Source: Thiomicrospira aerophila AL3
GTDB lineage: Bacteria; Pseudomonadota; Gammaproteobacteria; Thiomicrospirales; Thiomicrospiraceae
Assembly: GCF_000227665.2 (NCBI RefSeq)
Contig: NZ_CP007030.1
Coordinates: 558,001 to 622,000 of the forward strand
Length of the DNA stretch: 64,000 bases
Direction: 5' to 3'
Under the pieces are notes generated by a model, which was not told the DNA's origin, made no database searches, and saw nothing but the letters and a program-made list of their open reading frames with translations. Both the position numbers and the translations under genes were made by a program. Below, in pieces: positions 2 through 64,000 of this stretch. Within the stretch, counting starts at the first letter, position 1, and the number at the start of each line of letters is the position of its first letter.

Positions 2-1501
2 CCGGATCGTTTTGGCCATGCGCAAAACTTGATGGCGGCTTGGGCGCAACGCTTACCCGCCGAGGATCGCGTGGGTTTAATGCTGTTTGGTACCGAGGCC
101 TATTGGGCCTTGCCGATAACCGAAGATAAGGCGTTGTTGCAAAGCCGGTTGGGCTTATTGCAAGCACAACGCCTGCCGTTTGCGGGCACTCAGTTGGCGG
201 TCGCGATGCAGCAGGCTTTAGGGGTCGCGCAAGCGCAAGGGGTGCAGCAGGTGGTGCTGGTAACCGATGGCGTGTTGGCAGAGCAACAGACTGGTTTACT
301 GGCGGTGGCTGAGGCCTATGCGCAGGCGAAGATTGGTTTGCTAGTGGTCGGGGTAGGGTCGACGGATGCGGTGGGCTTGCCAGATTCAGCTTCACCAACC
401 GGATGGCTGGTCCATGATGGCGTGAGGGTGACGGTGCCAATGGCGCGACAAAGCTTGCAACGCCTAGCGCAAGCGGCACAAGGGCGCTATGTTGATGACC
501 GTAATCAATCTGCCGCACTACAAAGCTGGTTTGACTATGAGGCGCGTTTGTTAGTCAATGCTGGGTTGGGCTTAGATGATGAGAAGAGTGCAGACGATGC
601 GAGCGCTATGCAACGCGCATTTTACGACCTAACGCCTTGGGTGGTGGGATTGTTATTGCTAGGATTATTGTGGCGCTATTCGACGCCCAGTCAGCAGTCG
701 GCTCAGCGGCAAGCTATATCCTCATCACCGCTTGCTTTGTGGCTAGTAGCAGGCCTGCTAGTTAGCCTATTAAGTATGAACAATGTACAAGCTCAGCAAG
801 CGGATTATGTGCGCTGGATGCAAGCGGGAGAAGAGTTGCACCGCGAACAGCAACATCAACAAGCTCAGGGTTATTTTCGTCAAGCGCTATTAACTGCACG
901 AAACCATGACGAGCGGGCGCGTAGTTTATATAACCTAGGTTTAAGTTATGCCGATCAGCAGGCCTGGTCTTTAGCCGTAGAAGCCTTTGAAGGCGCGTTA
1001 ATTCATCAAGCGGACTTTCCCGAAGCGGCGCATAATTTAGCTTTGGCACAACGTCAGCAAGCGCTTGAATTGGCGGCGCAAGCCCGTCAGGCTGAGCAGG
1101 GTGAGCAAGCTCGCGAACAGGGAGAAAATGGCGAGGGCGTCGGGCGTGACGGCAATGAGGATCCAACCCTAGCTGGCGCCACCGATGGCGAAAACTGGGG
1201 GCGCGATGACGATGAAGACTATTGGGGCGAGGAGTTGCCAGAGCGCGATGCTCAGCAAGCCGAGTTACCGCCCGAGCAACAATCGACGTTTGCGAGTCGT
1301 GGGGCCTGGCAAGGCCAAGCGGTCATTGAACAGCAACGTCTAGATTTAGCCCGCGAGCAGCGTCAGGCTGATTTAGCCCGTTACTTAGACACGATTGCTG
1401 ATGACCAAGTGGGCATTTTGTTTCATTTGTTTGAGCGTGAGGCCGGTTTTCAAGCGCGTCAGGCCCAGCCACGTGAGCTGCCAGGGGTTAAACCATGGTA
1501 A
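2..1501 (+). CDS. VWA-TPR protein of a Bat-type operon (BatB/BatC-like), 5' end outside window
   Basis: The reading frame is open from base 2, so the gene begins upstream of the window. The internal TTG at 29 is not a real start, because the residues before it continue a von Willebrand A domain. The protein has the second half of a VWA domain, two hydrophobic segments at about 630-680 and 735-780, then tetratricopeptide-like repeats around 820-1060 and a long Gln/Glu-rich acidic tail. VWA plus TPR in one chain corresponds to BatB and BatC of the Bacteroides aerotolerance (Bat) operon. The next gene is BatD-like and overlaps the end by 7 bp, which supports this. Bat proteins are inner-membrane and periplasmic and are linked to stress tolerance, but their biochemistry is unclear. 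CAGGCCTG occurs at 750 and 959. Confidence 0.8.
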   Translation, partial: PDRFGHAQNLMAAWAQRLPAEDRVGLMLFGTEAYWALPITEDKALLQSRLGLLQAQRLPFAGTQLAVAMQQALGVAQAQGVQQVVLVTDGVLAEQQTGLLAVAEAYAQAKIGLLVVGVGSTDAVGLPDSASPTGWLVHDGVRVTVPMARQSLQRLAQAAQGRYVDDRNQSAALQSWFDYEARLLVNAGLGLDDEKSADDASAMQRAFYDLTPWVVGLLLLGLLWRYSTPSQQSAQRQAISSSPLALWLVAGLLVSLLSMNNVQAQQADYVRWMQAGEELHREQQHQQAQGYFRQALLTARNHDERARSLYNLGLSYADQQAWSLAVEAFEGALIHQADFPEAAHNLALAQRQQALELAAQARQAEQGEQAREQGENGEGVGRDGNEDPTLAGATDGENWGRDDDEDYWGEELPERDAQQAELPPEQQSTFASRGAWQGQAVIEQQRLDLAREQRQADLARYLDTIADDQVGILFHLFEREAGFQARQAQPRELPGVKPW

Positions 1502-2883: not shown

Positions 2884-2933
2884 GCCCAAATCAGCTAGAA
2901 TACAAAATCCATTTAATGTGTGAGTCGTGGCTA

Positions 2934-4724
2934 ATGAATCTGATGATGGCATTGTGGCTATGGCCGCTATTATTAACGCTCACCTTGTTAATTCCAGCCG
3001 CTAAAAAATACACGGGCACGCTCATCACCCTGGCTTTAATCCCAGCTATGTTGCTATGGCTGGCGCAATTAAGTTGGCTGGCACCAAGGATAATGCCTGT
3101 CGATGCTTTATACCTGCCAAGTTTTTTACTTGGCTTTCACTTGGTGTGGCACGAACTGTCATTTATTTGGCTCAGTTTTAATATCCTTGTGTGGGCCTTA
3201 GCGGCCTGGCATAGTCACTGGGTCAAAGTTGACAACATCCGTTATCCCTTGTTTATGACACTCAGTTTAAGCGGCAGCTTAGGCTTAGTGGTAGCGGGTG
3301 ATGCACTAAGCTTCTATTTGTTTTTTAGTTTAATGAGCCTGGCAGCCTGGGGTTTAGTAGTTCATGAGCGCACGCCAGTAGCGGAGCGCGCGGCTAGCTG
3401 GTATATCATGCTGGCTATTTTGGGTGAAACTCTGCTATTAAGTGGCCTGTTGCTACGCGCAGCAGAATTGGGTAGCACTGATTTAATGCTGTGGTTGAAT
3501 ACGCCATCAGGTGCATGGGGTATGATGCTGATTGCCCTTGGTATGGGGTTCAAGTTGGGTGCGCCATTGTTACATGTTTGGTTGCCCTTGGCTCATAGCG
3601 CCGCCCCCACGCCAGCCAGTGCTATTTTATCGGGGGTGATGATTAAAGCGGGTATTCTTGGATTATGGCTATTATTACCTAGCTTGGCGATGCCTTTAAC
3701 TGACAACCTATTTATGGCTGTTGCTTGGTTAGGCGGACTTGCTATGCTTTACGGCGTGGTGATGGGCTTAACCCAAACTTATCCTAAAACCATCTTAGCC
3801 TATTCGAGTATTAGTCAAATGGGCTGGCTAGTTTGGGGGCTAAGTTGGGTATGGCAAACGCCTGATCCGCGTGTTTGGGTGTTCTGGGTAGCCTTGTTTG
3901 CTTGGCATCACGCATTGGTTAAAAGTGCTTTGTTTATTGGGTTTGGTTGGCACAAGTTTGCCACTAGCATGACGCAAGCCTATATCGTACTTGCAGGTCT
4001 TGTGGTGCTAGCTTTAGTTTTAGCGGGCGCCCCCTTAACCGCTGGCGCTTGGTTGAAATACGGCATGAAGTTATCTAGTGAAATGGAAGCCGTGGTCGCA
4101 ACCTTACCACTTTGGTGGTTAAGTATTGCTTCAGGTGCGACCTTGCTATTGATGATTCATTTTATTCGGTGTTTAGTTAGCCAAAATGGGTTTAAAGCTA
4201 AGCCTGTATCAGGGGAGCTAAAATCAAATGTCTGGCATGATGACAGTGCCTTCAGTGCCTGGCTAGCTTTATTGCTCTTAATTATGCTTTGGCCCTTATT
4301 ACTCTTGACTGGTTGGTTTACCCAAGCTGTTAATTTAGGTAATCCAGCCTGGCAGGCATTTGTACCGGTGAGTTTGGTTGATGGGTCGATGATCCAACAG
4401 GCCTGGTTGCCGTTGTTTATGGCGCTGTTGCTTGCGTTGGCCTGGCGCTTTTTAATTAATCGTCAATTTGAGTTACCTGCAGGGGATGTACTGGTCTTTT
4501 ATGCCTGGTCAGCTAAAAAGCTGGCGCATTATTTAGTGTCAGCGAGAGGCCATATACTCAATGTTAAGTATTTGTTATTGACTAAAAAATCAGCTTATTT
4601 AAAAGCTGCGCGTTTACCGGCGATAATGCAAACGCACAAAACGATGAGTTGGTTTGGTTATTTACTTGCTTGGCTAGGCCTACTCGTTATGGTGTTGTTG
4701 ATTTTGACCTTGGCAGCAAGCTGA
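2934..4724 (+). CDS. Proton-translocating antiporter-like membrane subunit (NuoL/MrpD family), copy A
   Basis: A 596-residue, very hydrophobic protein with about 14 helices. It carries the hallmarks of the proton-conducting transporter family (complex I NuoL/M/N, Mrp antiporters, HyfB, DabB): Glu165 in a membrane helix, Lys207 in KLGAPLLHVWLP, His221, Lys238 in GVMIKAG, and a C-terminal AGAPLTAGAWLKYG segment. I chose ATG 2934, not the in-frame ATG at 2916, because the tandem copy at 4782 begins with the same MNLMMALWLW. No NADH dehydrogenase, Mrp or DabA (DUF2309) partner lies next to it, so the complex it joins is unknown. CAGGCCTG lies at 4398. Family is certain; function is open. Confidence 0.8.
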   Translation: MNLMMALWLWPLLLTLTLLIPAAKKYTGTLITLALIPAMLLWLAQLSWLAPRIMPVDALYLPSFLLGFHLVWHELSFIWLSFNILVWALAAWHSHWVKVDNIRYPLFMTLSLSGSLGLVVAGDALSFYLFFSLMSLAAWGLVVHERTPVAERAASWYIMLAILGETLLLSGLLLRAAELGSTDLMLWLNTPSGAWGMMLIALGMGFKLGAPLLHVWLPLAHSAAPTPASAILSGVMIKAGILGLWLLLPSLAMPLTDNLFMAVAWLGGLAMLYGVVMGLTQTYPKTILAYSSISQMGWLVWGLSWVWQTPDPRVWVFWVALFAWHHALVKSALFIGFGWHKFATSMTQAYIVLAGLVVLALVLAGAPLTAGAWLKYGMKLSSEMEAVVATLPLWWLSIASGATLLLMIHFIRCLVSQNGFKAKPVSGELKSNVWHDDSAFSAWLALLLLIMLWPLLLLTGWFTQAVNLGNPAWQAFVPVSLVDGSMIQQAWLPLFMALLLALAWRFLINRQFELPAGDVLVFYAWSAKKLAHYLVSARGHILNVKYLLLTKKSAYLKAARLPAIMQTHKTMSWFGYLLAWLGLLVMVLLILTLAAS

Positions 4725-4781
4725 CGAGCAAGTTCAAATCAGCTACAATAAATTTACTTTTCATAGCAGACGTGGTGACAG

Positions 4782-6587
4782 ATGAACCTGATGATGGCAT
4801 TGTGGTTGTGGCCGCTGTTATTGACAATCAGCTTGTTAATCCCGGCTACCAAAAAATATACCGGCACCCTTATCACCCTTGGCCTTATCCCAGCGGTATT
4901 GTTATGGTTTGCGCAACTGGGGTTGCTGGCCCCTGTCATCTCACCGCTTGATGCGCTTTATCTTCCTAGCTTTTTGCTTGGCTTTCACTTGGTATGGCAT
5001 GAGCTGTCATTTATTTGGCTGAGTTTTAGCATTATTATCTGGGCCTTAGTGGCCTGGCATAGTCATTGGGTCACCACCGATGATATTAGCTATCCGTTGT
5101 TTATGAAACTGAGTTTAGCGGGTAGCTTAGGGCTGGTCGTGGCCGGTGATGCCCTAAGTTTTTATCTGTTTTTTAGCTTAATGAGCCTAGCAGCGTGGGG
5201 GTTGGTGGTCCATGAACGCACTGTCCACGCAGAGCGGGCAGCAAACTGGTATATCATGCTGGCTATTTTGGGCGAAATTCTGTTATTCAGTGGCCTGTTG
5301 CTACGCGCGGCAGAATTGGGTACCACCGATTTAATGGTATGGATAGATACACCGTCCGGTGCCTGGGGCATGGTACTGATTGCCATGGGTATGGCGGTGA
5401 AATTAGGTGTGCCTTTGCTACATGTTTGGTTACCCTTAGCCTATACCGCCGCCCCCATTCCAGCCAGTGCCATTTTATCGGGCGTGATGATTAAGGCCGG
5501 CATTCTTGGATTGTGGATTTTATTACCCAGTTTGGCCATGCCGCTCAGTGAAACCGTGTTTATGGCACTCGCTTGGTTAGGTGGAATTGCTATGCTCTAT
5601 GGGGTGGTGATGGGCTTAACTCAAACTGACCCTAAAACCGTGTTGTCTTATTCAAGCATTAGCCAAATGGGTTGGTTGATTTGGGGGCTAAGTTGGGTAT
5701 GGCAAACGCCCGACCCGCGCATTTGGGTACTGTGGGTGGCTTTGTTTGTTTGGCATCATGCACTGGTGAAAAGCGCTTTATTTATTGGTTTAGGTTGGTA
5801 TAAATTTGCCACGACCATGGCACTACGTTATGTCGCCTCAGCAGGCCTGGTGCTGTTAGCTTTGGTGTTAGCGGGTGCACCCTTAACCGCTGGTGCTTGG
5901 TTGAAATACGGCATGAAATTATCCAGTGAAATGGATGCGGTGGTCGCAACCTTGCCACTCTGGTGGTTAAGTATTGCCTCTGGGGCCACTTTGTTGTTAA
6001 TGACTCATTTTATTAGGCGTTTGCTTAAACAGCCTTGGCCCTTAGTTATCCCCAAAGCGGCGCCTTCATGGTCGCGTATTTGGAACGATGCCGGTGCGTT
6101 TAGTGCTTGGGCGCTGGTATTGGGATTAATTTTATTTTGGCCGCTGTTGCTGTTGGCCGGCTGGTTTACCCAAGCGGTGAGTGGCGGTGCGAACGCTTGG
6201 CAAATCTTGGCACCGGTCAGCTTAGCCTATGGGCAGATGTTGCAGCAGGCCTTGCCCCCCTTAGTATTAGCTTTGATGATCGCATTGGCCTGGCGAATTC
6301 GAATCAATCGGCAATTTGAGTTGCCCGCAGGTGATGTATTAGTCGTCTATGAATGGTTGGGTGAGCAATGGCGAACCGGTCACGTAGGATTAGGTCAATT
6401 ATGGCGTGCGACCAGTCAGCGTTTGAGCCGGCTGACACCTCCGCAAGCCGCACTAAATTGGTTTAAGCATCCTAATGTGCATGGGCTGATTCATGCCAGT
6501 AAAACCATTCATTGGTTAGGTTATTTGTTAACCTGGATTGGGTTGTTAGTGATTGTGTTGTTGATTATGGTTTGGCCGATAGGTTAG
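4782..6587 (+). CDS. Proton-translocating antiporter-like membrane subunit (NuoL/MrpD family), copy B
   Basis: A 601-residue paralogue of the preceding gene in direct tandem. The first 410 residues or so are almost superimposable by eye; the C-terminal 180 have diverged. Glu165, Lys207 and Lys238 are kept, but His221 of copy A is Tyr here (PLAYTAAP instead of PLAHSAAP). This His sits in a helix that helps form the proton path in the family, so the two copies may differ in transport or one may be degenerating. The 57-bp gap to copy A ends with a block resembling the upstream region of copy A, showing that the duplication included the leader. Convergent with chaN, with only 5 bp between the stops. 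CAGGCCTG occurs at 5842. Confidence 0.8.
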   Translation: MNLMMALWLWPLLLTISLLIPATKKYTGTLITLGLIPAVLLWFAQLGLLAPVISPLDALYLPSFLLGFHLVWHELSFIWLSFSIIIWALVAWHSHWVTTDDISYPLFMKLSLAGSLGLVVAGDALSFYLFFSLMSLAAWGLVVHERTVHAERAANWYIMLAILGEILLFSGLLLRAAELGTTDLMVWIDTPSGAWGMVLIAMGMAVKLGVPLLHVWLPLAYTAAPIPASAILSGVMIKAGILGLWILLPSLAMPLSETVFMALAWLGGIAMLYGVVMGLTQTDPKTVLSYSSISQMGWLIWGLSWVWQTPDPRIWVLWVALFVWHHALVKSALFIGLGWYKFATTMALRYVASAGLVLLALVLAGAPLTAGAWLKYGMKLSSEMDAVVATLPLWWLSIASGATLLLMTHFIRRLLKQPWPLVIPKAAPSWSRIWNDAGAFSAWALVLGLILFWPLLLLAGWFTQAVSGGANAWQILAPVSLAYGQMLQQALPPLVLALMIALAWRIRINRQFELPAGDVLVVYEWLGEQWRTGHVGLGQLWRATSQRLSRLTPPQAALNWFKHPNVHGLIHASKTIHWLGYLLTWIGLLVIVLLIMVWPIG

Positions 6588-6592: not shown

Positions 6593-7792
6593 TTAATCGA
6601 GCGTGAGCTCTAATTCGATCACATCGACCTCGTCCGCACGGTCAGCTTGGTTGCTGGTATTATTACGATGCAGCGTCACCATAACTCGTTGATCTGGCAG
6701 GGTTTCATAAAGCGCTAACATTAAATCACTGAAGTGACGAATCGGTTGATGATTAAACGCAACAATACAGTCACCCACTTGTAAACCGGCCCAATCGGCG
6801 GCACTGTTGGCAATAATTTCACGCAAGCAAGCCTGGCCCTGTGGGGTAATATGGCTGCCAATGCGACCATGTGCCGGTAAAACTAGCTCGTCAGTGAGCA
6901 AAAAACCATCAAATCGGTCCGATTGCCATTCTTCAAATGAACCATTGGCAAGACTTAAGGTTTGTCTGGCTAAATTGGGCAGTTGGCGCAGCATATCGCC
7001 GATAATCGCCTGTTGATAATCTAAATGAAATTGTCCGGCTATAACTAACATGCGCGCGTTTGGGTTGGCTCTAAGCCAAGCGGCGGCATTCGTGGCCATG
7101 GTTTCGTCCCAAGTCCGTTGTGCATGGATAAAGTTATCGGTGTTGGCGTGTTCAGCCAAATTTTGACCAAAAAAAGCCTTAAGCCTCTGTTCATGTTCAG
7201 GATGGGGTGGATGAATCTTGGGCAATTGTATACGTTGTTCATGGCTTAAACTTTCCAGCCCCTCACGCGCAATCTGTCGGGTGAGTTCAGCGGGTGCATT
7301 CAACGCTAAGATACGAATTTGATGATCGCGCGCATAATGCATTAGTGGTTGCAGCAAGCGCCAATCATAACGCCAACGAGTAAAGTATTCGGTGCGTTGT
7401 AATAATTCGCCTTCATCTAAATGTCCAGCAATATAGCCATCTACCCAGGCTTGAAAGGGCGCTTGAAACCATTCCACACCCACCGCGAGCTCTGATGTTT
7501 GTTGATGCATCAGGTGTAATAATTCAGCTTGGATTAAATGGTCACTGAGTCGGTTGTGAATTTCGCCATGAAAAATAACCTTATAATCAGTCAAGTGAGT
7601 GATTAAACCTTGCCAGTCATCTGCCTGGCTAAAATCCACAACTTCTGGGTTAAAGGGCAGGGTGACTAGGTTTTGTTGTGCCGCTTGTTCAAGTGGACTG
7701 CTTAGTGGTGTGTCAGCCATACTGCCCCCAGAGATAGTCAATAGCAGGCCTGCTAGTATTGAGGTGACAAGTGGTTTAAGTCTGGTGGTCAT
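6593..7792 (-). CDS. ChaN-family protein with C-terminal PDZ domain
   Basis: A 399-residue exported protein with a signal peptide in the first 26 residues. The body matches the ChaN (DUF399) family: the HGEIHNRLSDH segment near residue 75 and GVEWFQAPFQ near residue 103 are its characteristic patches. ChaN proteins bind haem and have been linked to iron acquisition. The last 80 residues or so, starting near GSHITPQG, form a PDZ-like domain that would bind peptide termini. No lipobox cysteine is visible, unlike lipoprotein ChaN members. It is the last gene of a minus-strand operon with nfeD and qmcA; its ATG overlaps the nfeD stop by 4 bp. CAGGCCTG at 7745 falls in the signal peptide. Confidence 0.8.
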   Translation of the reverse strand: MTTRLKPLVTSILAGLLLTISGGSMADTPLSSPLEQAAQQNLVTLPFNPEVVDFSQADDWQGLITHLTDYKVIFHGEIHNRLSDHLIQAELLHLMHQQTSELAVGVEWFQAPFQAWVDGYIAGHLDEGELLQRTEYFTRWRYDWRLLQPLMHYARDHQIRILALNAPAELTRQIAREGLESLSHEQRIQLPKIHPPHPEHEQRLKAFFGQNLAEHANTDNFIHAQRTWDETMATNAAAWLRANPNARMLVIAGQFHLDYQQAIIGDMLRQLPNLARQTLSLANGSFEEWQSDRFDGFLLTDELVLPAHGRIGSHITPQGQACLREIIANSAADWAGLQVGDCIVAFNHQPIRHFSDLMLALYETLPDQRVMVTLHRNNTSNQADRADEVDVIELELTLD

Positions 7793-8229
7793 TCAGGCTC
7801 AATCCAGGCCTGGTTGAGTTCAATTTTAGTGACGCGAACCCTTTGACCTTCTTGCCATTCGGCCGGTGGATTGGCAACTTGCCAATGGGTGCCGTGGTAG
7901 AACACCATCCAGGTATCATTGTGTAAGGAGAGTTTGCCTATGCCACCGGTTTGGTAGGTGACCGAAATTTCTTCTTTGGCGTTGCGCTTGGCAATCACTT
8001 TATTACGCAGGGCGAACAGCAGCACCGAGCCGATGGCAAAGGCAAAAATGAGTTGAATTTCGCCATACTCAAAATCGACCACAAAACTGAGCAAGCCAAC
8101 CGCAATTAAGCCAATGCCAAACCACATCAACATAAATAAACCGAGCAGCATTTCGATGCCGATGAGCGCAAAGCCCAATGCAATTAGCGCCCAGCTTGGA
8201 ATCAGGTCGAGCAGGCCTGGTGTAATCAT
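7789..8229 (-). CDS. NfeD-family membrane protein (YbbJ-like)
   Basis: A 146-residue protein with two or three N-terminal transmembrane helices (about residues 10-75) and a C-terminal soluble beta-barrel (OB-fold) domain of about 60 residues, typical of short NfeD proteins such as YbbJ. NfeD proteins pair with SPFH proteins in membrane microdomain and membrane quality-control systems. The partner gene lies directly upstream and overlaps by 4 bp, as in ybbK-ybbJ of Escherichia coli. The downstream gene overlaps by 4 bp as well. CAGGCCTG copies lie near each end of the gene, at 7805 and 8212. Confidence 0.85.
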   Translation of the reverse strand: MITPGLLDLIPSWALIALGFALIGIEMLLGLFMLMWFGIGLIAVGLLSFVVDFEYGEIQLIFAFAIGSVLLFALRNKVIAKRNAKEEISVTYQTGGIGKLSLHNDTWMVFYHGTHWQVANPPAEWQEGQRVRVTKIELNQAWIEPE

Positions 8230-9264: not shown

Positions 9265-9765
9265 ATGTTGAAACAATCATTAAAATCTTTACTTGTTGCA
9301 TCAGGCCTGGTTGTGGCGATGGCGCCGATTGCTAATGCGCAATCGCTTACCGTTGATGTGCCAAGATTAACCCTAGAAGTAAACAACAAAATCGCGATGG
9401 AAACCATTAAAGCTTGTGAAGCTAAAGGCATTCCGGTATCGGTTACCGTGGTCGATCGTAACGGGATTATTATGGTGCAGATGCGTGACTCGATGGCGCC
9501 ACCGGTATCCTTGCCAATTTCTCAGAAAAAAGCCTACACAGCAGTCATGTTTAATGCCAATGGGTCACAGTTAGTTAGCCAAGCTGAAGGGGCATTGCCA
9601 ACCTTGGGTGAAGGCCTTGCCTTTATGGCCGGTTCAGTGACGATTTCGGCCGGTGGCCGTTTGTTTGGTGCCGTTGGGGTGAGTGGTGCGCCAGGTGGCG
9701 ATATTGATGAAGAATGTGCTGTAGCGGGTGTTGAAGCGGTTCAGATGGACCTTGAAATGATGTAA
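9265..9765 (+). CDS. Exported GlcG/HbpS-family haem-binding-like protein
   Basis: A 166-residue protein with a clear signal peptide (cleavage after the Ala-Asn-Ala near residue 25). The mature part is a GlcG/HbpS (DUF336) domain: an initial helix, the VSVTVVDRNG strand, a central SQKKAYTAV helix, and the glycine-rich ending SAGGRLFGAVGVSG. Members bind haem or cobalamin-type ligands or act as accessory sensors; the ligand here is unknown. A very good ribosome binding site (TTGGAGG, 5 bp from the ATG) suggests strong expression. Single-gene unit with its own terminator. CAGGCCTG at 9302 lies within the signal-peptide codons. Confidence 0.8.
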   Translation: MLKQSLKSLLVASGLVVAMAPIANAQSLTVDVPRLTLEVNNKIAMETIKACEAKGIPVSVTVVDRNGIIMVQMRDSMAPPVSLPISQKKAYTAVMFNANGSQLVSQAEGALPTLGEGLAFMAGSVTISAGGRLFGAVGVSGAPGGDIDEECAVAGVEAVQMDLEMM

Positions 9766-10666: not shown

Positions 10667-13600
10667 GTGCAGTCAAACAGACCTGTTACACAAAACCAAA
10701 TAACCATTCCTGAAGATTACATTTTATCTACCACTACTAATTTACAGGGCACTGTTGCAACGGCCTCGGATGACTTTTTAAAAATCTCTGGCTATAGTCG
10801 TGAGGAATTTGTCGGTCAACCCCATAACATTTTGCGCCACCCAGATGTGCCAGCCCAAGTGTTTGAGGATATGTGGCAAACCATTAAAGCCGGTAAAGAT
10901 TGGACTGGGATTGTAAAAAATCGTGCTAAAAATGGTGACCACTATTGGGTGCAAGCCAACGTATCGCCTATGGTTGAAGATGGCAAAAAACTCGGTTATG
11001 TTTCGGTTCGCACTCCGGCGACATCGCAACAAATAGCCATGGCTGAAAAACTTTATCGTCAAATTAATCAAGGTGAACTAAGGCTGCAAAACAGCATGGC
11101 CATCACCCCTTTGGCAGCGAAGTTAAACAAGTTTGCCATTACTGGCAGCTTGGCAAAACTTTTGGCAATTTACGCCATGATCGTGTTGTTAGCAGGCCTG
11201 GTGGCCCTGGGTGGTTTGTTTTATAAATCGCAAATTGCACCGATTATTGACCAGCAGCTCAATGAGGCGCTAGATGTTGCAGAACAACAAATCAAAGATC
11301 AGATTGCATTTAAATCGGTTTCTGTGACCGATATCGCGGCCACCGCGGCGATGATGCCTGAAATTCAGCGAGCCTTGGCAGGAGTAGTGCCTCGGACAGT
11401 TGCAGAACAGCGTCTGTCAGAAGTTCAAAATCACTTCGCTAGAATCACTGACTACCGCAATATTCGTTTTCAACTTTATGATACTGAACGCCGCTCCTTT
11501 ATGCGCTCCTGGTCATTGGAGCAGTTTGGTGATGAACATCTTGACCGGATTCGTGATCGTGCACTTGAAACCCAGCGTGTAGTGGGTGACCTATCCATTG
11601 ATAAAAATGGCTTTGGTATTGGTGCGACAGGTTATGCGCCCGTGTTTTATAACAATCAATTGGTTGGGGTGGTGTCCGCTTCGGGTGGCGTCGGCTCCAT
11701 TGTGCGCGATCTTAAGCAACTCAACACTGACTGGGTCATGGTAATCGACCAAAGCTTTTATGGTGATCGCATGCCGCGAACTTTGGTCAATAACAATGCG
11801 TTTATGTCAGGTTATTTGTTGGCTCATAACGCTTGGTTTAATGAAGAGGTCATCAATTACCTGCGTGATAACCTGCCAAAATTTGAACAGGGTGAAAATC
11901 GTGCCGGTTACTTCATAGGTGATGCAATTATTTTAGATTTACCTGCATACAATCCGGTCGGTGAGGTCATAGGTCGTCATCTGATGATTAAACCGGCCGA
12001 TCAAATTCAGCAGCAAATAGCCGCCGCCACTCAACAAGTGATTTGGTCTTTGTTAGGCGTCGTGTTGGTGGTGATTGCGATTGTGCTATTACTGTTATTA
12101 GTGATCTCAAAACGGGTGATTAAGCCGCTTAAAATGTTGTCGGCGTCGATGCGCACCATGATCAACACAGGTCGTTTTAATGGGCGAGTCATGTACCTTG
12201 ATCGCGGTGACGAAATCAGTGACATTGTGCAGTCCTACAATCGTTTTGCAGCTAATGTCCAGCGTGCAATAACCAATGTTAATGACGTCATGTCTTCGGT
12301 TGCCGAAGGTAAATTTGATGTTCAGGTTACTGATATTCTCCATGGTGACCTTAATGTGATGAAAAACGCCGTTAATGCGTCGGTAGGGAGTGTTCAAAAT
12401 ACAATGGACGCACTTGAAATCGTGATGGATGCTCTTTATAACGGCGACTTTAGTGTTAGCTTGCCGGATACTGTTAAAGGGGAGTTCCGTACTAAGGTTG
12501 ATCAGGCTGTGCAAAACTTGCAGCTAACCATCAATAGCATCAACCACGTGATGTCTAAAATGCAAGAGGGTGATTTCCATTATCGCGTTGAGGTTGACGC
12601 ACGCGGTGAACTATTGAAACTTAAAAACGGTATCAATAGTTCGATGGAAGACATCTCGGATGCGATTACAAAAATCAGTCAAGTGGTGGCCGCGCAGGCG
12701 TCGGGAGATTTAACAGTCGAGTTACCTACAGGGCATTTTAAAGGTGAACTACATAGCCTGAAAAACTCGATTAACTATTCGATGGAAAAAATGAAACAGG
12801 TGGTTAACGCAGTAACCGATGCGTCGGTCAATGTGAGCAGTGCCGCTACCGAAGTGTCGCAAGCATCATTAGATTTGAGTCAACGGGTACAAGAACAAGT
12901 TACCGCATTAGAAAAAACGTCTGCCACGATGGATGAAATGAACGCGGCAGTTCAAGCGAATACCCAAAACGCACAACAAACTGCTGAGGTTACTTTGCAG
13001 GTTAGAAGCCAAGCTAACCAAGGTGCCACGGTTATGCAACAAACTATCGGTGCGATGAATTCGATTCAAGAGTCGAGTCATAAGATAGCTGATATTGTGA
13101 CCTTGATTGATGGGATAGCCTTCCAAACCAACTTGCTTGCACTGAATGCGGCGGTAGAGGCCGCCCGTGCCGGGGAGCATGGTCGTGGTTTTGCGGTGGT
13201 AGCCAGTGAAGTACGAGCCTTGGCGCAAAAATCAGCTGAAGCGGCCAAAGATATTAAAGGCCTGATCGACGAAAGCGTGGGACGGATCGATGAAGGCACC
13301 AAGCTTGCTGCTGAATCAGGGGAGGTGCTGCAGGGTATTAATGATGCGATTAATAATGTGGCCGAGATGATTAAACAAATTGCCCAGGCCTCTGTTGAGC
13401 AATCTGAGGGCATCAAGCAAGTTCACAATGCGATTGCACAGATTGATGGTGTCACCCAGCAAAATGCGGCCTTGGTAGAAGAAACCAGTGCGGCATCAGA
13501 AAGCCTGAGTGAACAGGCGCAGTTGTTGCAACAAGACATGGCGTTCTTTAAAACCGGCAATGCCGCTAGCCAGCCGAAAGCTTTAGCGAAACCTGCGGCC

Positions 13601-51731: not shown

Positions 51732-52823
51732 CTAGCTTCCCTGCCAACATCCACCCAAAATACACGCCTTGCTACTGCCGGTGACCCCAGTTAAATCGAC
51801 TGGTTTACCTAACCAGGCCTGCTGCGCCAGCCATGCACACAGCATCCCCTCAATAGCTAAAGGATCGGTCTGGTAATCTGCCGTGGTCATTACCTGTTGG
51901 GTGCCAATTTTATGCTGCAAGCGCGTTAATAGCGTGCGATTTAAACTGCCGCCGCCGCAGATTATCACCGGTGCGAACGCTTGGTTTATATTATTGGCTA
52001 GGGTGATGGCCGTGAGTTCATTAAGGGTGCTGAGTAGTTCTATAGGCGCTTGCCAGGCGCTAGCGGGTAAGCGTGCTTGTAACCAGGCCTGGTTAAAATA
52101 GTCGCGCCCCGCGCTTTTGGGCGGTGGTTTGGCAAAGTATGGATCGCTCAATAAGGCTTGTAACCAGGCCTGGTTGGGGGTCGCCTGTGCGGCCAGCTCA
52201 CCCTGGGCATCGTAGCGGCAGTTTAAATAGGCTTGGCAAATTTCATCCATCAAACCGTTGCCTGGGCCGGTATCCCAGCCCTGCAATGGCGTATTAGGGC
52301 TAATGAGGCTGACATTGGCAATGCCACCAATATTCACCATCCAGGCTTGCTGCAGCGCTTTGCTGTGTAACCAGGCCTGGTGAAACAGCGGGGCGAGGGG
52401 CGCGCCTTGGCCTCCGAGTGCCATATCATCGACGCGAAAATCCGCGTAGGTGGTAATGCCGGTGCGTTTAGCAATCACCGCTGGGTGACCTATTTGTAAG
52501 CTCATGCCGAGTTGGGGTGCATGAAACAGGGTATGGCCATGACTGCCTAAGGCGGTAATCTGCTCGGGTAGCATGTCATGTTGGTCAATAAGGTTGAGCG
52601 TCGCTTGGGCGAAGGCGTCGCCAAGATCGCGCTCTAGCTGAGCCAACTCTAGCAGGCTAATGTGTGTTTGCTTGTTGAGGTTTTTTAGCGCAGCCGCGTG
52701 CGGCAGTGGATGGGTGTAGCGCCCGATCAGTTGCATGTCTTGCTGTTCGAAGGCGACCAGACAGGCTTCAATGCCATCGGCACTGGTGCCGGACATCAAG
52801 CCAATAAAATACTGTCTGTTCAT
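51732..52823 (-). CDS. anmK: Anhydro-N-acetylmuramic acid kinase
   Basis: A 363-residue sugar kinase of peptidoglycan recycling: it cleaves and phosphorylates anhydro-MurNAc to MurNAc-6-phosphate in the cytoplasm. Motifs seen: GLMSGTSADGIE at the N-terminus, GSHGHTLFHAP, VNIGGIANVSLI, DTGPGNGLMD, and ICGGGSLN near the C-terminus. Four copies of CAGGCCTG (51814, 52084, 52165, 52372) all encode Gln-Ala-Trp-Leu within otherwise variable surface segments, the densest cluster in the window. It is the last gene of a minus-strand set with the M23 peptidase (9-bp gap) and tusA. Confidence 0.92.
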   Translation of the reverse strand: MNRQYFIGLMSGTSADGIEACLVAFEQQDMQLIGRYTHPLPHAAALKNLNKQTHISLLELAQLERDLGDAFAQATLNLIDQHDMLPEQITALGSHGHTLFHAPQLGMSLQIGHPAVIAKRTGITTYADFRVDDMALGGQGAPLAPLFHQAWLHSKALQQAWMVNIGGIANVSLISPNTPLQGWDTGPGNGLMDEICQAYLNCRYDAQGELAAQATPNQAWLQALLSDPYFAKPPPKSAGRDYFNQAWLQARLPASAWQAPIELLSTLNELTAITLANNINQAFAPVIICGGGSLNRTLLTRLQHKIGTQQVMTTADYQTDPLAIEGMLCAWLAQQAWLGKPVDLTGVTGSSKACILGGCWQGS

Positions 52824-52832: not shown

Positions 52833-54131
52833 CTATTCAAATAGCTTGGCGAGTTGGGTAATGCTTGGGTCGGTGCGGCGCAATTGAGCGTTCAGCAGGC
52901 CTGCCCATTGGGCAAAAACCGGTTGTAGTTCTTTAGCCACCGGGTCGCCGCCTGGAAATTCAACGGTAAGTGGGTCGTGATGCACGCCATTAATACGGAA
53001 TTCATAATGCAGATGAGGCCCGGTTGCAAGACCGGTCATGCCAACATAACCAATGACGTCGCCCTGTTTAACGCGTTGTCCTTGTTTGAATTTGCCAAAG
53101 CGTGACATATGGCCATAAACGGTTTCATAACGCCCGGCGTGTTGCAAGATGATGTAGTTGCCATAGCCGCGACCCCAGCCACGGAATTTAACCGTACCAT
53201 CGCCAGCAGCATAAATGGGGGTGCCGGTTGGAGCGGCATAATCAACGCCCTTGTGGTCACGAATTTCTTGTAATACCGGGTGGTAGCGACCACGCTGAAA
53301 ACGTGAGCTAATCCGCGTATAGTTAATCGGGTTGCGCATAAAGGCTTTGCGGAGGTTGTCGCCATTTTCATTGAAATAGCCTAGCAGCTCACCTTCGTGT
53401 TCAAAGCGAAAGGCGTTAATCGTTCGATTACGATGCTTGAGGTGCAGTTGTGCAGCTAAAATGGCGCCGTCACCTATGTATTGGCCATCAATATAGCGGC
53501 GTTCATAAACAATAGTAAATTCGTCGCCTTCGCGTAATTCACGGACAAAATCGACTTCCCAGGAGTAGATGTCAGCTAAGTTCATAATGGTGCGTGGACT
53601 GGCACCTACGGCTTGCACGCCTAAATAAAAGGAGTCATTAATTTCACCTGATGCCATCACAATACGAGTTTTAACTTCCTTATGTTCGGCGTAGATGGTC
53701 ATACCCTTATCAAGCTCTTCATTCATTTCCAGAATGTAGGTGAGAGTGGGGCTACGATTAAGTTCCATGCGGGCTAATTCGTCATCCGCGGTCAGCCACA
53801 TAATGATCTCGTCACCTGAGCGTAATCGGGTGAAGTAATGGGCATTTTCATGGCGGCCAATGCGCCAAAGCAGGTTGCCATTGTCGGCAACGATTTGAAG
53901 AGCATGACCTAAACCTTGGTTGCGCTGCAGGGTGTAGCGTACTTCCCGCAGTTCAGGGCTGAAATTTTCGGTTTGTTGTTGGCTTTGGGTGTTGTTAATT
54001 TGGCGTTCTGGCAGTTCAAGGTTTAGGCGTTGGTAATCTTGCGCCATAATGGGTTGGCTTAGCCAAGCTAGGCCTAATAGCATTACAACAAAAAAGAGGG
54101 TAAGTAAGCGAATTCGTGGTGCTTGAGTCAT
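52833..54131 (-). CDS. M23-family cell-wall endopeptidase (MepM/OapA-like)
   Basis: A 432-residue protein with an N-terminal membrane anchor or signal (about 10-30), a LysM-like or OapA-type middle region (about 90-160), and a C-terminal LytM/M23 domain (about 285-410). Zinc ligands are visible in HKGVDYAAP (HxxxD), and HLHYEF near the end completes the site. MepM-type enzymes cleave peptidoglycan cross-links to let the wall grow. Its neighbour anmK recycles the resulting wall fragments. CAGGCCTG lies at 52896. Confidence 0.87.
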   Translation of the reverse strand: MTQAPRIRLLTLFFVVMLLGLAWLSQPIMAQDYQRLNLELPERQINNTQSQQQTENFSPELREVRYTLQRNQGLGHALQIVADNGNLLWRIGRHENAHYFTRLRSGDEIIMWLTADDELARMELNRSPTLTYILEMNEELDKGMTIYAEHKEVKTRIVMASGEINDSFYLGVQAVGASPRTIMNLADIYSWEVDFVRELREGDEFTIVYERRYIDGQYIGDGAILAAQLHLKHRNRTINAFRFEHEGELLGYFNENGDNLRKAFMRNPINYTRISSRFQRGRYHPVLQEIRDHKGVDYAAPTGTPIYAAGDGTVKFRGWGRGYGNYIILQHAGRYETVYGHMSRFGKFKQGQRVKQGDVIGYVGMTGLATGPHLHYEFRINGVHHDPLTVEFPGGDPVAKELQPVFAQWAGLLNAQLRRTDPSITQLAKLFE

Positions 54132-55476: not shown

Positions 55477-57551
55477 TGCTGGCGCAACAAGATATTTTGG
55501 TCGAAATTGGTACAGAAGAGCTGCCACCTAAGTCGTTACAAACCTTGGCAAAATCTTTGGCAAGCGGTTTAGAAACGGGCTTGCAACAAGCTAATCTCAG
55601 TTATGGTCTGGTGCATGTCTATGCGGCACCACGTCGTTTAGCAGTGTGGGTTGAAGCGGCGCAAACTCAGCAAGCCGATCAAACGCTTGAGCGTAAAGGG
55701 CCTGCCTTGCAAGCAGCCTATGATCAAGACGGTCAGCCGACCAAGGCGTTGTTAGGTTTTGCGCGGTCGTGTGGCTTAGAGTTGAGCGAACTATTTACTG
55801 AAGAAACTGACAAGGGCGCCTGGTTAATGGCGCGTCAAGTTAAGCCGGGTGCCGCCTTAACAAGTCTATTACCAGGCTTGGTTGAGCAGGCATTAAAACA
55901 CTTGCCGATTCCAAAGCCGATGCGTTGGGGCGATTCAGCGATTGAATTTGTGCGCCCAGTCCATTGGGTAGTATTAATGTTGGGTGATCAAGTGGTGCCC
56001 GCGACGATTCTAGGTTTGCCAACGGGGAATACTACCCGAGGTCATCGTTTCCATGCGCCGGAAGAAATCGAGATTTCATTACCGAGTGAATATGCGTCTA
56101 TTCTTGCAGAACAAGGTTTTGTGTTGGCCGACTTTGATCAGCGTCGTGAGCGTATTCGCGAGCAGGTCGCACGCGTGGCGGATAGCTTTGATGCGCGTCC
56201 AGTGATTGATGAGGCCTTGCTTGATGAGGTGACGGCGTTGAATGAATGGCCGAATGCCTTGGCGGGTTGTTTTGATGAACAATTTTTGCAGGTGCCGGCT
56301 GAATGCTTAGTGTCGGCGATGAAAGGCCATCAAAAGTTTTTCCATTGCCTGGCACCAAATGGTGAGTTGATGGCACGTTTTATTACCGTCAGTAACATTG
56401 CCAGTCAAAATCCGGCGGCGGTGGTATCGGGCAATGAGCGCGTCATCCGTCCTCGTTTATCTGATGCGCAATTCTTTTGGAATCAAGATCGCAAACAATC
56501 CCTAGAAGCTTTTCTACCGGCACTTGAAAAAGTCGTATTCCAGCAACAACTTGGTACAGTCGCTAACAAAATTGGGCGTTTAGAACAGCTTGCTAGTGAG
56601 TTAGCGACCGAGTTGAATGCAGAGCCGGCGGCGGCAATGCGTGCCGCGCGTTTGGCTAAATGTGATTTGATGAGTTTGATGGTCGGTGAATTTCCTGAAT
56701 TACAGGGCACGATGGGACGTTATTATGCTTTGCAACAGGGTGAAGCTGATGCGGTCGCGCAAGCCATAGAGCAACATTATTGGCCTCGTTTTGCCGGTGA
56801 TGCTCTGCCGCAAGACACCTTGGCGCAGATTGTCGCTTTGGCTGATCGTCTTGATACCATTGTGGGTATTTATGCTATAGGTCAAGGACCGACCGGTGAT
56901 AAGGATCCGTTTGCCTTACGTCGTGCGGCCTTAGGCTTGGCGCGTATTGTGATTGAAGCAGGCCTGCCTATTGATATTACGCACTGGGTGGCGCGTGCCG
57001 CTGCAGCCTATCCGCAGTTGCAAATTAGTGCTGAACAGCAGGCTGAGATTGTGGCGTTTATTGTGTCGCGCTTGAAGTCCTACTATCAAGATGAAGGTGT
57101 TTCTGCACAGGTATTTGATGCGGTGCGGGATACGGGCGTGACGCGTTTGTTAGAGTTGAATCAACGCATTCAAGCGGTGCGTCATTTTGCCAGTTTAGAA
57201 CAAGCTGAAAGTCTATCAGCGGCAAATAAACGGATTGCGAACATCTTGAAAAAAGTCGCGCAACCCTGGCCAGATGCGGTGGTGGAAACGCGTTTTGAGC
57301 AGGATGCTGAGCGTGCGCTCTGGGCGGCGTTTTGTCAGGTGCGTGCCGAGAGTTTAGCGGCGATGGCGCAGGGTGACTATCAGCAGGCACTGGTGGTGTT
57401 AGCGGTGTTGCGTGAACCGGTGGATGCGTTTTTTGATCAGGTGCACGTGATGGCTGATGACGCGGAACTACAAGCGAATCGCATCGCGATGTTGAATCAT
57501 ATTCGTCAAGCTTTTTTAGCGGTCGCGGATATTTCTCGGTTGGCAAATTAA
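55476..57551 (+). CDS. glyS: Glycyl-tRNA synthetase beta subunit
   Basis: A 691-residue subunit with the N-terminal LVEIGTEELPPKSL signature, the central RPVHWVVLMLGD region, a GNERVIRPRLSDAQFFWNQD block, and a C-terminal anticodon-binding domain (DALRQ-like; VRDTGVTRLLELNQRI). Needed with GlyQ to charge tRNA-Gly. It overlaps glyQ by one base and gmhB by one base (TAATG at both junctions), so the four genes glyQ-glyS-gmhB-plsC form one operon. CAGGCCTG lies at 56959. Confidence 0.95.
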   Translation: MLAQQDILVEIGTEELPPKSLQTLAKSLASGLETGLQQANLSYGLVHVYAAPRRLAVWVEAAQTQQADQTLERKGPALQAAYDQDGQPTKALLGFARSCGLELSELFTEETDKGAWLMARQVKPGAALTSLLPGLVEQALKHLPIPKPMRWGDSAIEFVRPVHWVVLMLGDQVVPATILGLPTGNTTRGHRFHAPEEIEISLPSEYASILAEQGFVLADFDQRRERIREQVARVADSFDARPVIDEALLDEVTALNEWPNALAGCFDEQFLQVPAECLVSAMKGHQKFFHCLAPNGELMARFITVSNIASQNPAAVVSGNERVIRPRLSDAQFFWNQDRKQSLEAFLPALEKVVFQQQLGTVANKIGRLEQLASELATELNAEPAAAMRAARLAKCDLMSLMVGEFPELQGTMGRYYALQQGEADAVAQAIEQHYWPRFAGDALPQDTLAQIVALADRLDTIVGIYAIGQGPTGDKDPFALRRAALGLARIVIEAGLPIDITHWVARAAAAYPQLQISAEQQAEIVAFIVSRLKSYYQDEGVSAQVFDAVRDTGVTRLLELNQRIQAVRHFASLEQAESLSAANKRIANILKKVAQPWPDAVVETRFEQDAERALWAAFCQVRAESLAAMAQGDYQQALVVLAVLREPVDAFFDQVHVMADDAELQANRIAMLNHIRQAFLAVADISRLAN

Positions 57552-58117
57552 TGGGTGATACCATGCCACCTTTGCTTATTCTTGATCGTGATGGGGTGAT
57601 CAATTTTGACTCAGATGACTTTATTAAATCGGCTGATGAGTGGCAACCTATACCGTTTAGCTTAGCTGCGATAGCGCAGTTTAAACGCGCCGGCTGGCTA
57701 GTGGCGGTTGCGACCAATCAATCTGGCATTGCGCGCGGCTATTATGACCGTTTGGCCTTGCGTGCGATGCACCGTAAGTTAAATCAGCTTTTAGTCAGCG
57801 AGTTTAATGTCCAGTTGGATTGGCTGTGTTATGCCCCTTATTTGAGTGATCAGCCGAATGTGGCACGCAAGCCGCTCACCGGTATGTTGCGCCAAATTAG
57901 CCTTACTCTAAACCGGCCTTTGCAGCAGCAAATTATGGTGGGTGATACCTTGGCCGATATTCAAGCTGCGCAGGCGGTTGGCATGCGTCCCTATTTGGTG
58001 CGCAGCGGTAAGGGTGAGCGAACACTGGCTGCGCATCCAGAGTTAGCAAAACATTTGCCGGTTTATGATGATTTAGCCGCAGTGGCAGCAGGCCTGCTCA
58101 CTCAGTCCAAGGAGTAG
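57551..58117 (+). CDS. gmhB: HAD-family histidinol/heptose bisphosphate phosphatase, GmhB-like
   Basis: A 188-residue HAD phosphatase with LDRDGVIN near residue 11 (nucleophile and acid Asp), ATNQSGIARGYY, RKPLTGM, and GDTLADIQAA. The position after glyS is where gmhB, the heptose-1,7-bisphosphate 7-phosphatase of lipopolysaccharide core synthesis, is often found. Unusually, the zinc-loop region reads CYAPYLSDQPNVARKP, lacking the Cys/His set found in Escherichia coli GmhB before RKP. So either this branch does not use the structural zinc or the substrate differs. ATG 57563 is an alternative start. CAGGCCTG lies at 58089. Confidence 0.75.
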   Translation: MGDTMPPLLILDRDGVINFDSDDFIKSADEWQPIPFSLAAIAQFKRAGWLVAVATNQSGIARGYYDRLALRAMHRKLNQLLVSEFNVQLDWLCYAPYLSDQPNVARKPLTGMLRQISLTLNRPLQQQIMVGDTLADIQAAQAVGMRPYLVRSGKGERTLAAHPELAKHLPVYDDLAAVAAGLLTQSKE

Positions 58118-61122: not shown

Positions 61123-61130
61123 TAAAATCA

Positions 61131-61815: not shown

Positions 61816-61829
61816 GTGCGTGACTCAAC

Positions 61830-62477
61830 TTAAGGCGATAGCCGCTGTCCATGCCAGCTGCCATCCGTATGACGTGTAAAGTTGATGCGGTCATGTAAAC
61901 GATTTGGACGGCCTTGCCAAAATTCGATACGTTCCGGCGCTAAACAATAACCGCCCCAATGAGCAGGCCTGGTCGGTGCTTGATTGGCATAGCGATGTTT
62001 GAGTTCAGCCATTTTTTGTTCAATAGCTTCTCGGTTCGCCAGCACTTGACTTTGTTCCGACACCAGCGCGCCAAGCTGACTATCAAGTGGCCGACTTTGG
62101 AAGTAGCGGTCTGACGCTTCAGCACTTATTTTAGTGACCTTGCCTTCAATGCGAATTTGGCGCTCAAGCTGTGGCCAAAAGAAGTTCAGTGCTGCAAAGG
62201 GGTTATGAGCAAGCTCTTCACCTTTATCGCTGGCATAGTTGGTGTAAAACACCAGGCCTGCTTGATCAAGCTGTTTTAGTAATACGATGCGGCTGTGGGG
62301 ACGTCCCTGTGCATCGACAGTGGCTAGGTTCATCGCTGTGGGCTCATCAATCTTGTGATTAAACGCATCGTCAAACCAGGTTTGTAACAATAGCAAGGGT
62401 GATTGCGCGATAAAACTATCGTCTAGCGCGCCCATTTCATAGCTTTTACGTTCGGCATGATAATCACGATTTGGCAT
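61830..62477 (-). CDS. pdxH: Pyridoxine/pyridoxamine 5'-phosphate oxidase
   Basis: A 215-residue FMN enzyme that makes pyridoxal 5'-phosphate. Motifs: AMNLATVDAQGRPHSRIVLLK, FYTNYASDKGEEL, the QSRPLDSQLGALVSEQS segment, and the C-terminal WGGYCLAPERIEFWQGRPNRLHDR and W-Q-RLSP-type ending. Full length. CAGGCCTG at 61964 is the only copy in the window read in the Arg-Pro frame; another lies at 62253. Confidence 0.95.
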   Translation of the reverse strand: MPNRDYHAERKSYEMGALDDSFIAQSPLLLLQTWFDDAFNHKIDEPTAMNLATVDAQGRPHSRIVLLKQLDQAGLVFYTNYASDKGEELAHNPFAALNFFWPQLERQIRIEGKVTKISAEASDRYFQSRPLDSQLGALVSEQSQVLANREAIEQKMAELKHRYANQAPTRPAHWGGYCLAPERIEFWQGRPNRLHDRINFTRHTDGSWHGQRLSP

Positions 62478-62575
62478 GGTTCACCTCAGTTAGAACAGTT
62501 AGGTTTTGGATGATCATCATACTGAGCGAAATCACAAAATGCTAGAGGCCCGCGCAAGCGCAGGCGTTTTTAGTC

Positions 62576-62581
62576 TATAAT
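62576..62581 (+). promoter_or_regulatory. Probable -10 element for parE
   Basis: Perfect TATAAT 31 bp before the parE start codon in the 135-bp gap divergent from pdxH. No convincing -35 element. Confidence 0.4.
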
Positions 62582-62612
62582 TTGGATATATAAACACCTT
62601 GGGAGACGTGCT

Positions 62613-64000
62613 ATGGCGCAGGGCTACAATGCAGCGGAAATTGAAGTGTTAACCGGTTTAGATCCGGTGCGCAAGCGTCCCGGTATGTATACCGATACGA
62701 CACGCCCCAATCATCTTGCGCAAGAAGTCATCGACAATAGTGTCGATGAAGCCTTAGCGGGTTTTGCCAATCGTATTGAAGTGATTCACTATCCAGATGG
62801 TTCAATGAGTGTTGAAGATAATGGTCGTGGGATGCCTGTTGATTTACATCCTGAAGAGGGCGTACCGGGTGTTGAGGTGATCTTGACCCGACTCCATGCC
62901 GGTGGCAAGTTTTCTAATAAAGCTTACCAGTTTTCAGGTGGTTTGCATGGTGTCGGGGTATCGGTAGTGAATGCCCTTTCGAAGCGAGTTGAGGTAGAAA
63001 TTAAGCGCGATGGGCTGATTCATCATATTGCCTTTGAACAAGGGCTTCGAGTCAGTCCACTGACGGTGACTGGTAAAGTCGCTAAAAAACAAACCGGTAC
63101 ACGGGTCACTTTTTGGCCAGAAGCGCAGTTTTTTGATAGCCCTAAATATGCCTTGTCACGATTAAAGCATTTATTGCGTGCGAAGGCGGTGTTATGTCCA
63201 GGCCTGCTGATTCGTTTTGAGGACCAGCAAAGTCAAGACGTGCAAGAGTGGTGTTATGAATCCGGTTTGCAAGACTATTTAGTGCAGTCAATGGCTGATC
63301 AAGAGGTCTATCCAGCGGAGGGATTTGTCGGTGAGCACCGTGGTGAGCAAGAGGCGGTTGCTTGGGCGCTGGCTTGGCAGGTAGGCGGGGAAGCCCTGGC
63401 TGAAAGCTATGTCAATTTGATTCCGACCCCGCAAGGTGGCACCCATGTGAATGGTTTGCGCCAAGGGGCAACGGATGCGGTGCGGGAGTTTTGTGAGTTT
63501 CGTAATATGTTACCGCGTGGTTTAAAACTCTCTCCTGAGGATGTTTGGCAAAACGTCGCCTACGTACTGTCGGCCAAAATGCGTGATCCGCAGTTTGCCG
63601 GTCAAACTAAAGAGCGCTTGTCATCACGTGAAGCAGCAGTTTACATAGGTGGCGTGGTAAAAGATGCCTTGAGTCTCTGGTTGAATCAGCATACCGATGT
63701 TGCTGAAAAAATTGCTGAACTTGCGATTCAGAATGCGCAGTCGCGGCAACGTAAATCTAAGCAAGTGACCCGCAAAAAAATCACCATGGGACCGGCTTTG
63801 CCTGGCAAGTTGGCCGATTGTACTGAATCGGATTTAACCCTTACCGAGTTGTTTTTGGTTGAGGGGGATTCCGCTGGCGGTTCGGCCAAGCAAGCTCGTG
63901 ATAAACGTTTTCAGGCGATTATGCCGTTACGCGGTAAAATTCTTAATACTTGGGAGGTCGCTTCTGACCAGGTGTTGGCATCACAAGAAGTGCATGACAT
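62613..64000 (+). CDS. parE: DNA topoisomerase IV subunit B, 3' end outside window
   Basis: Starts at ATG 62613 with GGGAG nine bases upstream and stays open to the end of the window (462 codons). It encodes the ATPase subunit of topoisomerase IV, which separates replicated chromosomes. The GHKL ATPase site is visible: EVIDNSVDEALAG, EDNGRGMPVD and GGLHGVGVSVVNALS. The transducer domain with its QTKERLSS stretch follows, and the TOPRIM start is LFLVEGDSAGGSAKQARD, then AIMPLRGKILNTWEV. The AKQARDKRFQAIMPLRGKIL pattern and DTTRPNHL near the start favour ParE over GyrB. CAGGCCTG lies at 63199. Confidence 0.93.
   Translation, partial: MAQGYNAAEIEVLTGLDPVRKRPGMYTDTTRPNHLAQEVIDNSVDEALAGFANRIEVIHYPDGSMSVEDNGRGMPVDLHPEEGVPGVEVILTRLHAGGKFSNKAYQFSGGLHGVGVSVVNALSKRVEVEIKRDGLIHHIAFEQGLRVSPLTVTGKVAKKQTGTRVTFWPEAQFFDSPKYALSRLKHLLRAKAVLCPGLLIRFEDQQSQDVQEWCYESGLQDYLVQSMADQEVYPAEGFVGEHRGEQEAVAWALAWQVGGEALAESYVNLIPTPQGGTHVNGLRQGATDAVREFCEFRNMLPRGLKLSPEDVWQNVAYVLSAKMRDPQFAGQTKERLSSREAAVYIGGVVKDALSLWLNQHTDVAEKIAELAIQNAQSRQRKSKQVTRKKITMGPALPGKLADCTESDLTLTELFLVEGDSAGGSAKQARDKRFQAIMPLRGKILNTWEVASDQVLASQEVHD

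Follow-up and report, generated by a model that had tools for sequence, protein, structure and literature searches.

The DNA analyzed here is a 64-kb stretch (the window) of the 2,158,359-base genome of Thiomicrospira aerophila AL3 (G000), in which a palindromic octamer, CAGGCCTG (the word), is repeated many times. An earlier note on this DNA had counted 34 copies where about one is expected by chance. The window indeed contains 34 exact matches, and 100 dinucleotide shuffles gave a mean of 0.78 and a maximum of 4. It was also confirmed that 25 of the 34 fit a longer, 12-bp palindrome, ASCAGGCCTGST. Seven of these have the form AGCAGGCCTGCT (750–757, 2603–2610, 7745–7752, 25388–25395, 38919–38926, 44328–44335, and 58089–58096). 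Ten have either AGCAGGCCTGGT (959–966, 2776–2783, 5842–5849, 8212–8219, 11193–11200, 31420–31427, and 61964–61971) or ACCAGGCCTGCT (38163–38170, 51814–51821, and 62253–62260), and eight have ACCAGGCCTGGT (20531–20538, 24710–24717, 26170–26177, 34372–34379, 34853–34860, 52084–52091, 52165–52172, and 52372–52379). The other nine copies are located at 4398–4405, 7805–7812, 9302–9309, 17621–17628, 20189–20196, 33555–33562, 52896–52903, 56959–56966, and 63199–63206.

Using a home-made gene caller, we found that 33 of the 34 copies lie wholly inside called genes. Three of them are within called genes of less than 150 amino acids (7805–7812 and 8212–8219 in the gene at 7789–8229, minus strand; 38163–38170 in the gene at 37865–38248, plus strand), and the last copy (63199–63206) is in a called gene running past the window end. 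The only copy outside called genes (34853–34860) is in a 223-amino-acid open reading frame (ORF) that overlaps another. Thus, the previous statement that all copies are in coding sequence is correct, or nearly so, for the window. At the genome level, however, there is nothing special about it: 754 of 862 copies in G000 are in called genes and 754.6 are expected from coding density, that is, the word is coding-neutral. Among other genes of the window, two neighboring genes of approximately 600 amino acids each (2916–6587) resemble NADH-dehydrogenase/antiporter subunits, all matches being under the curated cut-offs.

The whole genome contains 1,128 copies of the word, approximately 520 per Mb, and a single copy of the reversed word, which served as a control. 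In 1.68 Mb of G000, 862 copies were detected, whereas an order-3 Markov model in which the word was masked predicts 22; a count near the Markov expectation, which the earlier note had named as a refuting result, was therefore not obtained. Among all octamer palindromes in 464 kb, the word occurs 270 times and the runner-up 39 times. Such over-representation of a palindromic word throughout the genome is what characterizes the highly iterated palindromes (HIP) of cyanobacteria. Words with one mismatch show little excess in G000 (602 vs. 540 expected, 1.11-fold), and exact copies outnumber them; in G006, a genome of the same genus which was our main partner for pairwise comparison, 190 exact and 172 one-mismatch copies (121 expected) were found. 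The suggestion that near misses also recur is thus only weakly supported: the pair TAGGCCTG/CAGGCCTA is enriched (58 vs. 32 expected), whereas GAGGCCTG/CAGGCCTC is not (23 vs. 24). Literature searches on the word, on HIP1, palindrome, and octanucleotide, and on uptake together with the family names revealed no description of this motif among the papers listed, subscription journals being mostly outside their coverage.

The site extends beyond the octamer. Analysis of 269 copies in G000 revealed that the bases flanking the core are preferentially A (81%) and C/G (95%), followed by weak preferences over two to three further bases. In other lineages the inner flanking base is C in 82–90% of cases and the outer bases are lineage-specific (30–100 half-sites per group). 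The site is therefore two-fold symmetric over 12 bp or more. In addition, the flanks of the two half-sites vary independently, as 469 of 796 sites were good on both sides and 461.7 were expected. Considering this symmetry, which includes the degenerate flanks, and the independence of the halves, we infer a reader protein that is itself symmetric, probably a homodimer, and that recognizes the word in double-stranded DNA. Neither sequence signal nor conservation between G000 and G006 was detected past a few flanking bases, indicating that the word is not part of a copied element.

To what extent the word is constrained was analyzed by aligning 231 kb of G000 and G006 (78.7% identity). Among 148 sites of G000, 94 are exact in G006, and among 117 sites of G006, 94 are exact in G000, whereas background exact conservation is 20% for all 8-mers and 14% for 8-mers of the same composition. 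Identity around the sites returns to background after a few bases. In three of five aligned blocks, tripeptides coded by the motif are retained as peptides in 61 of 78 cases, which is not more often than other tripeptides (37,026 of 46,987). Once the peptide is retained, however, the motif-coded ones are identical at the nucleotide level in 49 of 61 cases and the others in only 8,216 of 37,026 (22%). A similar difference was observed for the single peptide AGL, which is conserved at the nucleotide level in 12 of 19 motif-coded cases and in 2 of 28 cases when written otherwise. Constraint on the word thus acts at the DNA level.

This constraint is also visible in proteins. The reading frames of 236 copies in genes are distributed as 114, 111, and 11, and the peptides are mainly QAW/QAC and (A/P)GL, in agreement with the recurrence of QAWL and AGLL noted before. 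QAW occurs 98 times, compared with 22.5 expected from neighboring dipeptides, and 86 of the 98 are written CAGGCCTGG, compared with 10.8 expected from codon usage. Codon usage, which the earlier note had named as a second possible refutation, does not explain the excess, and the idea that protein sequence bends to the word is well supported. One example is a site approximately 730 bases into murD, which encodes QAW in 11 genomes (five Thiomicrospira, three Hydrogenovibrio, and three Thiomicrorhabdus). Other residues are present at this position in the word-poor genomes G016, G029, G030, G032, G034, and G035, and also in the Thiomicrospira genomes G000, G002, and G006, which miss that particular site.

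Gaps between copies in G000 are nearly exponential in length and slightly clumped rather than regular, and copy density does not peak around 1.0 Mb, where the terminus presumably lies. In 1.56 Mb of this genome, the longest gaps correspond to a mobile region, the rpoBC-ribosomal-protein cluster, and a type I-F CRISPR (clustered regularly interspaced short palindromic repeats) locus. The mobile region (G000:C1:1214677-1268019) has 3 copies in 53 kb, which fits a label of resident DNA. Among its genes are those for F-type conjugation (TraD/TraC-like) and for a type III methylase; integron-like, cassette-like genes are also present, separated by repeats as long as approximately 100 bp. In the ribosomal cluster, none of the eight AGL/PGL peptides is written with the word, and this gap may reflect simple protein constraint. 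In the type I-F CRISPR-Cas locus (G000:C1:1355340-1371089), which lacks the word, the array comprises 42 or more repeat units with a 60-base period.

We then analyzed the distribution of the word in 62 genomes of the family (Thiomicrospira, Hydrogenovibrio, and Thiomicrorhabdus; groups g1–g7), in which genomes with at least 200 copies were considered carriers and the remainder low. Carriers account for 32 of the 62 genomes (236–1,173 copies). All nine genomes of g1 (840–1,128 copies) and the single genome of g4 (409) are carriers, as are 7 of 11 in g6 (479–962; others 9–18) and 15 of 32 in g3 (236–1,173; others 3–74), whereas all nine genomes of g2, g5, and g7 are low (0–67). Among 51 genomes from other families of the class, the maximum was 225 copies, with reversed controls of up to 91. 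A small tree of nine proteins of the division and cell wall (dcw) cluster (32 sequences including 3 outgroups; g2, g4, g5, and g7 not placed) suggests by parsimony that the word may be ancestral to the three genera and may have been lost about four times; losses were judged by eye without inspection of branch support, those of L113 and L119 from 18–21 kb only.

In one genome the word appears to have been replaced. G029 has only 12 copies of the word; a different palindrome, ACCGGCCGGT, occurs there 1,025 times, compared with 0–15 times in the other 61 genomes. In 100 kb of G029, ACCGGCCGGT has T- and A-rich flanks and is found in 36 exact and 13 one-mismatch copies, mostly outside genes (20 of 36, 6.4 expected). 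A comparison by list of offsets in the dcw cluster showed no clear common place between these sites and the old positions of the word. The new palindrome and the different flanks among lineages are lineage dialects of the kind known for uptake sequences.

A non-palindromic 14-mer, ATCTGCCAGGNTGG, was detected in three relatives of Hydrogenovibrio (209 copies in G030, 205 in G032, and 230 in G034) and 0 or 1 times in the other 59 genomes. Its form is ATCTGCCAGG(C/T)TGG, and its 5' flank is A-rich; among the copies listed, those of G030 have C as the variable base (with one G) and those of G032 and G034 have T. This element is often outside genes, with some inverted pairs, and resembles either a DNA uptake sequence (DUS) or a repetitive extragenic palindromic (REP) element. 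No other repeated word was obvious in G016 (100 kb), G035 (60 kb), G043, or G014 (40 kb each); a 20-kb sample of G034 had likewise shown no obvious word, although the 14-mer was later found there.

What could maintain such a word? We suggest, with a rough probability of 0.4, that it may act as a self-DNA (uptake) signal that uptake-recombination drive has spread. The word, which is the core of the symmetric 12-bp site with weaker preferences beyond, would serve as a family-wide label of self-DNA, and the symmetric, probably homodimeric protein would recognize it on double-stranded DNA. During natural transformation, bacteria would prefer DNA of their own kind through the word; fragments carrying it would be taken up more often and would recombine into the chromosome, so that sites would spread and be repaired. 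Loss of the reader would lead to decay of the copies, and a new reader would give rise to a new dialect.

Several observations point to this possibility. The replacement in G029, the approximately four losses, and the stable positions both between G000 and G006 and in murD suggest an uptake signal, and the DUS-like 14-mer of G030, G032, and G034 may be counted for it as well. Replacement together with clean loss would be better explained by drive than by 1,000 separate selective needs. Uptake-recombination drive has been proposed for the uptake signal sequence (USS) of Haemophilus and the DUS of Neisseria. Because it is an established proposal where a word combines a strong consensus with stable positions and dialects (PMC1626085, PMC1939737), we chose the uptake explanation. 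Exact copies outnumbering one-mismatch copies is a trait of USS and DUS that is unlike sites of regulatory proteins (Redfield et al., PMC1626085), and the word shares it (862 vs. 602). The USS of Pasteurellaceae (AAGTGCGGT) also resembles the word in its strong core, few mismatches, positions stable between genera, and subclade dialects (PMC1626085). The DUS of Neisseriaceae, whose reader is ComP, has dialects and is family-wide, as is the word.

Distribution of competence proteins was analyzed in 51 genomes that were at least 90% complete, among them G061 with 8% contamination (27 carriers and 24 low). Every one of the 27 carriers has one intact ComEC gene of the typical kind, compared with 17 of the 24 low genomes (Fisher's exact test, P-value = 0.003, kinship ignored). 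This correlation is suggestive only. ComEC was matched in 61 of the 62 family genomes and was above the cut-off in 52, and those considered not intact are a mixed set: G021, G049, and G055 have weak matches only, and three g2 genomes of this completeness have an open but divergent ComEC. In G027 (contig C1), ComEC is present in two pieces 37 kb apart, the main piece being above the cut-off; with 74 copies of the word, this genome ranks first in the low group. Matches to both ComEC and DprA are present in G000. However, DprA was matched in all 62 genomes (60 above the cut-off) and is therefore uninformative as a correlate.

A number of findings weigh against an uptake signal. Intact ComEC is still present in the 17 low genomes mentioned above, and no receptor for the word was identified, including a ComP-like one. 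DUS is not palindromic. The word is palindromic and differs in sequence from DUS, and its palindromy is also unlike the USS (PMC12616744). USS and DUS favor noncoding DNA and are more evenly spaced than random (PMC1626085); the word is not enriched outside genes and its gaps are nearly exponential and slightly clumped.

The strongest point against uptake concerns the motors of type IV pili. Since no genome passes the curated cut-off of the PilB-like profile TIGR02538, we used classes of matches to this profile. A full-length PilB-like match (profile positions ~2–562) is present in 24 of the 27 carriers, the exceptions being G000, G002, and G006. The latter genomes also have no match in the PilT class, which was defined by scores of approximately 145–154 bits, PilT's own family not having been searched. 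They have one, one, and two matches, respectively: one of approximately 390 bits each, and in G006 an extra match of 540 bits (positions 81–563). Nevertheless, they retain 840–1,128 copies, and the sites shared by G000 and G006 are strongly constrained. Retention of the word without PilB/PilT-type matches is the main obstacle to uptake driven by type IV pili. The 390-bit match of G000 corresponds to an MshEN-domain ATPase, next to which are encoded a secretin nearest MshL (under its cut-off), a prepilin, and a GspF-like protein. These genes form a minimal operon (G000:C1:644645-651820) like that of the mannose-sensitive hemagglutinin (MSHA) pilus. As this is the only filament operon found in G000, uptake there would need an MSHA-like system, and it is possible that a minimal filament handles uptake in this clade.

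Alternatively, the word may be the site of an abundant homodimeric chromosome protein involved in nucleoid organization, segregation, or repair, with direct selection on approximately 1,100 sites and no relation to DNA uptake. We consider this explanation somewhat less probable than an uptake signal. Several of the above findings agree with it: the two-fold symmetric consensus with independent half-site flanks resembles the contacts of a dimer, the word is coding-neutral, and the sites are strongly conserved between two genomes that both lack the full-length PilB-like and PilT-class matches. On the other hand, the replacement in G029 and the several losses are hard to achieve by selection on 1,000 sites singly, spacing is irregular and copies are not concentrated around the presumed terminus, and so strong a core consensus is atypical of protein sites (PMC1626085).

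An explanation of the HIP1 type, in which an orphan methyltransferase for GGCC or AGGCCT together with biased mismatch repair makes and keeps the palindrome (Elhai's model), appears improbable. As a description, the term HIP1-like used in the earlier note is right: the word is a palindromic octamer found mostly inside genes, and one relative has an alternate. Similar to HIP1 (GCGATCGC) and the alternate HIPs of cyanobacteria, it occurs hundreds of times per Mb, within the HIP density range, and alternates are found in relatives (PMC4390886). It has a GGCC core, and the alternate ACCGGCCGGT of G029 has the identical center. However, it differs from HIP1 in sequence and phylum, and its one-mismatch copies are fewer than exact ones, whereas such copies are called common in many cyanobacteria (PMC4390886). 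The methyltransferase role proposed before found no support either. No match to PF00145 was detected in G000 and eight congeners, and an orphan C5 methyltransferase was thus rejected for them. PF01555 is patchy, with two matches in G000 (one in the word-poor mobile island and one at 1.95 Mb), and PF02086 has no match in G000, and N4/N6-beta and D12 methylases were also rejected as enzymes common to carriers. None of the three families is present in 9 of the 27 nearly complete carriers, nor in G029. With no family among these three common to carriers (PF02384 and other classes were not searched family-wide), the HIP1-type explanation is not supported. Fifteen proteins with methylase signatures were found in 1.56 Mb (72%) of G000. 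A Pfam search with nine of them, but not the other six, identified as DNA methylases a single type I HsdM and the type III Mod. Type I enzymes recognize split sites that lack palindromic symmetry. Some HIP1-rich genomes have no CGATCG methyltransferase (Elhai, PMC4390886), and therefore a missing enzyme is not fatal to this model. Overall, the view that the word is more like HIP1 than like uptake sequences stands for palindromy and coding-neutrality but not for its strong consensus, dialects, and stable positions, which are uptake-like (PMC1626085).

A Chi-like recombination hotspot read by RecBCD is very improbable. Chi is read on one strand and in one direction. The word is, like Chi, a short over-represented word, and matches to RecC are present in G000, G002, G006, and G029, but it is symmetric including its flanks, and RecC was found in only 12 of the 62 genomes, among which are no more than 3 of the 32 carriers (AddAB not searched). 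RecBCD was thus rejected as a reader, with no RecC match in 29 carriers. Finally, although QAW and AGL are frequent peptides, the possibility that the word merely results from preferred peptides or codons, or from an inserted element that spreads, is refuted by the codon counts, the AGL comparison, and the decay of signal and conservation past a few flanking bases.

Returning to the uptake signal, we tentatively propose that the word might represent a third, independently evolved self-DNA signal. Such a signal would be palindromic and independent of methylation, present in approximately 1,000 copies, read symmetrically on double-stranded DNA, replaceable wholesale, and maintained by drive even where the usual type IV pilus motors are lacking. 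It would differ from the USS, which is non-palindromic and preferentially noncoding, in being palindromic and coding-neutral and in the missing PilB/PilT-type matches in the clade of the window. More generally, repetition of the word suggests an undescribed way of marking or handling own DNA in this family, with a demand at the DNA level strong enough to fix residues of the essential enzyme MurD across three genera. With approximately 60 family genomes in which the palindrome is present, absent, or replaced, genes that co-vary with it may be listed and the reader protein sought among them.

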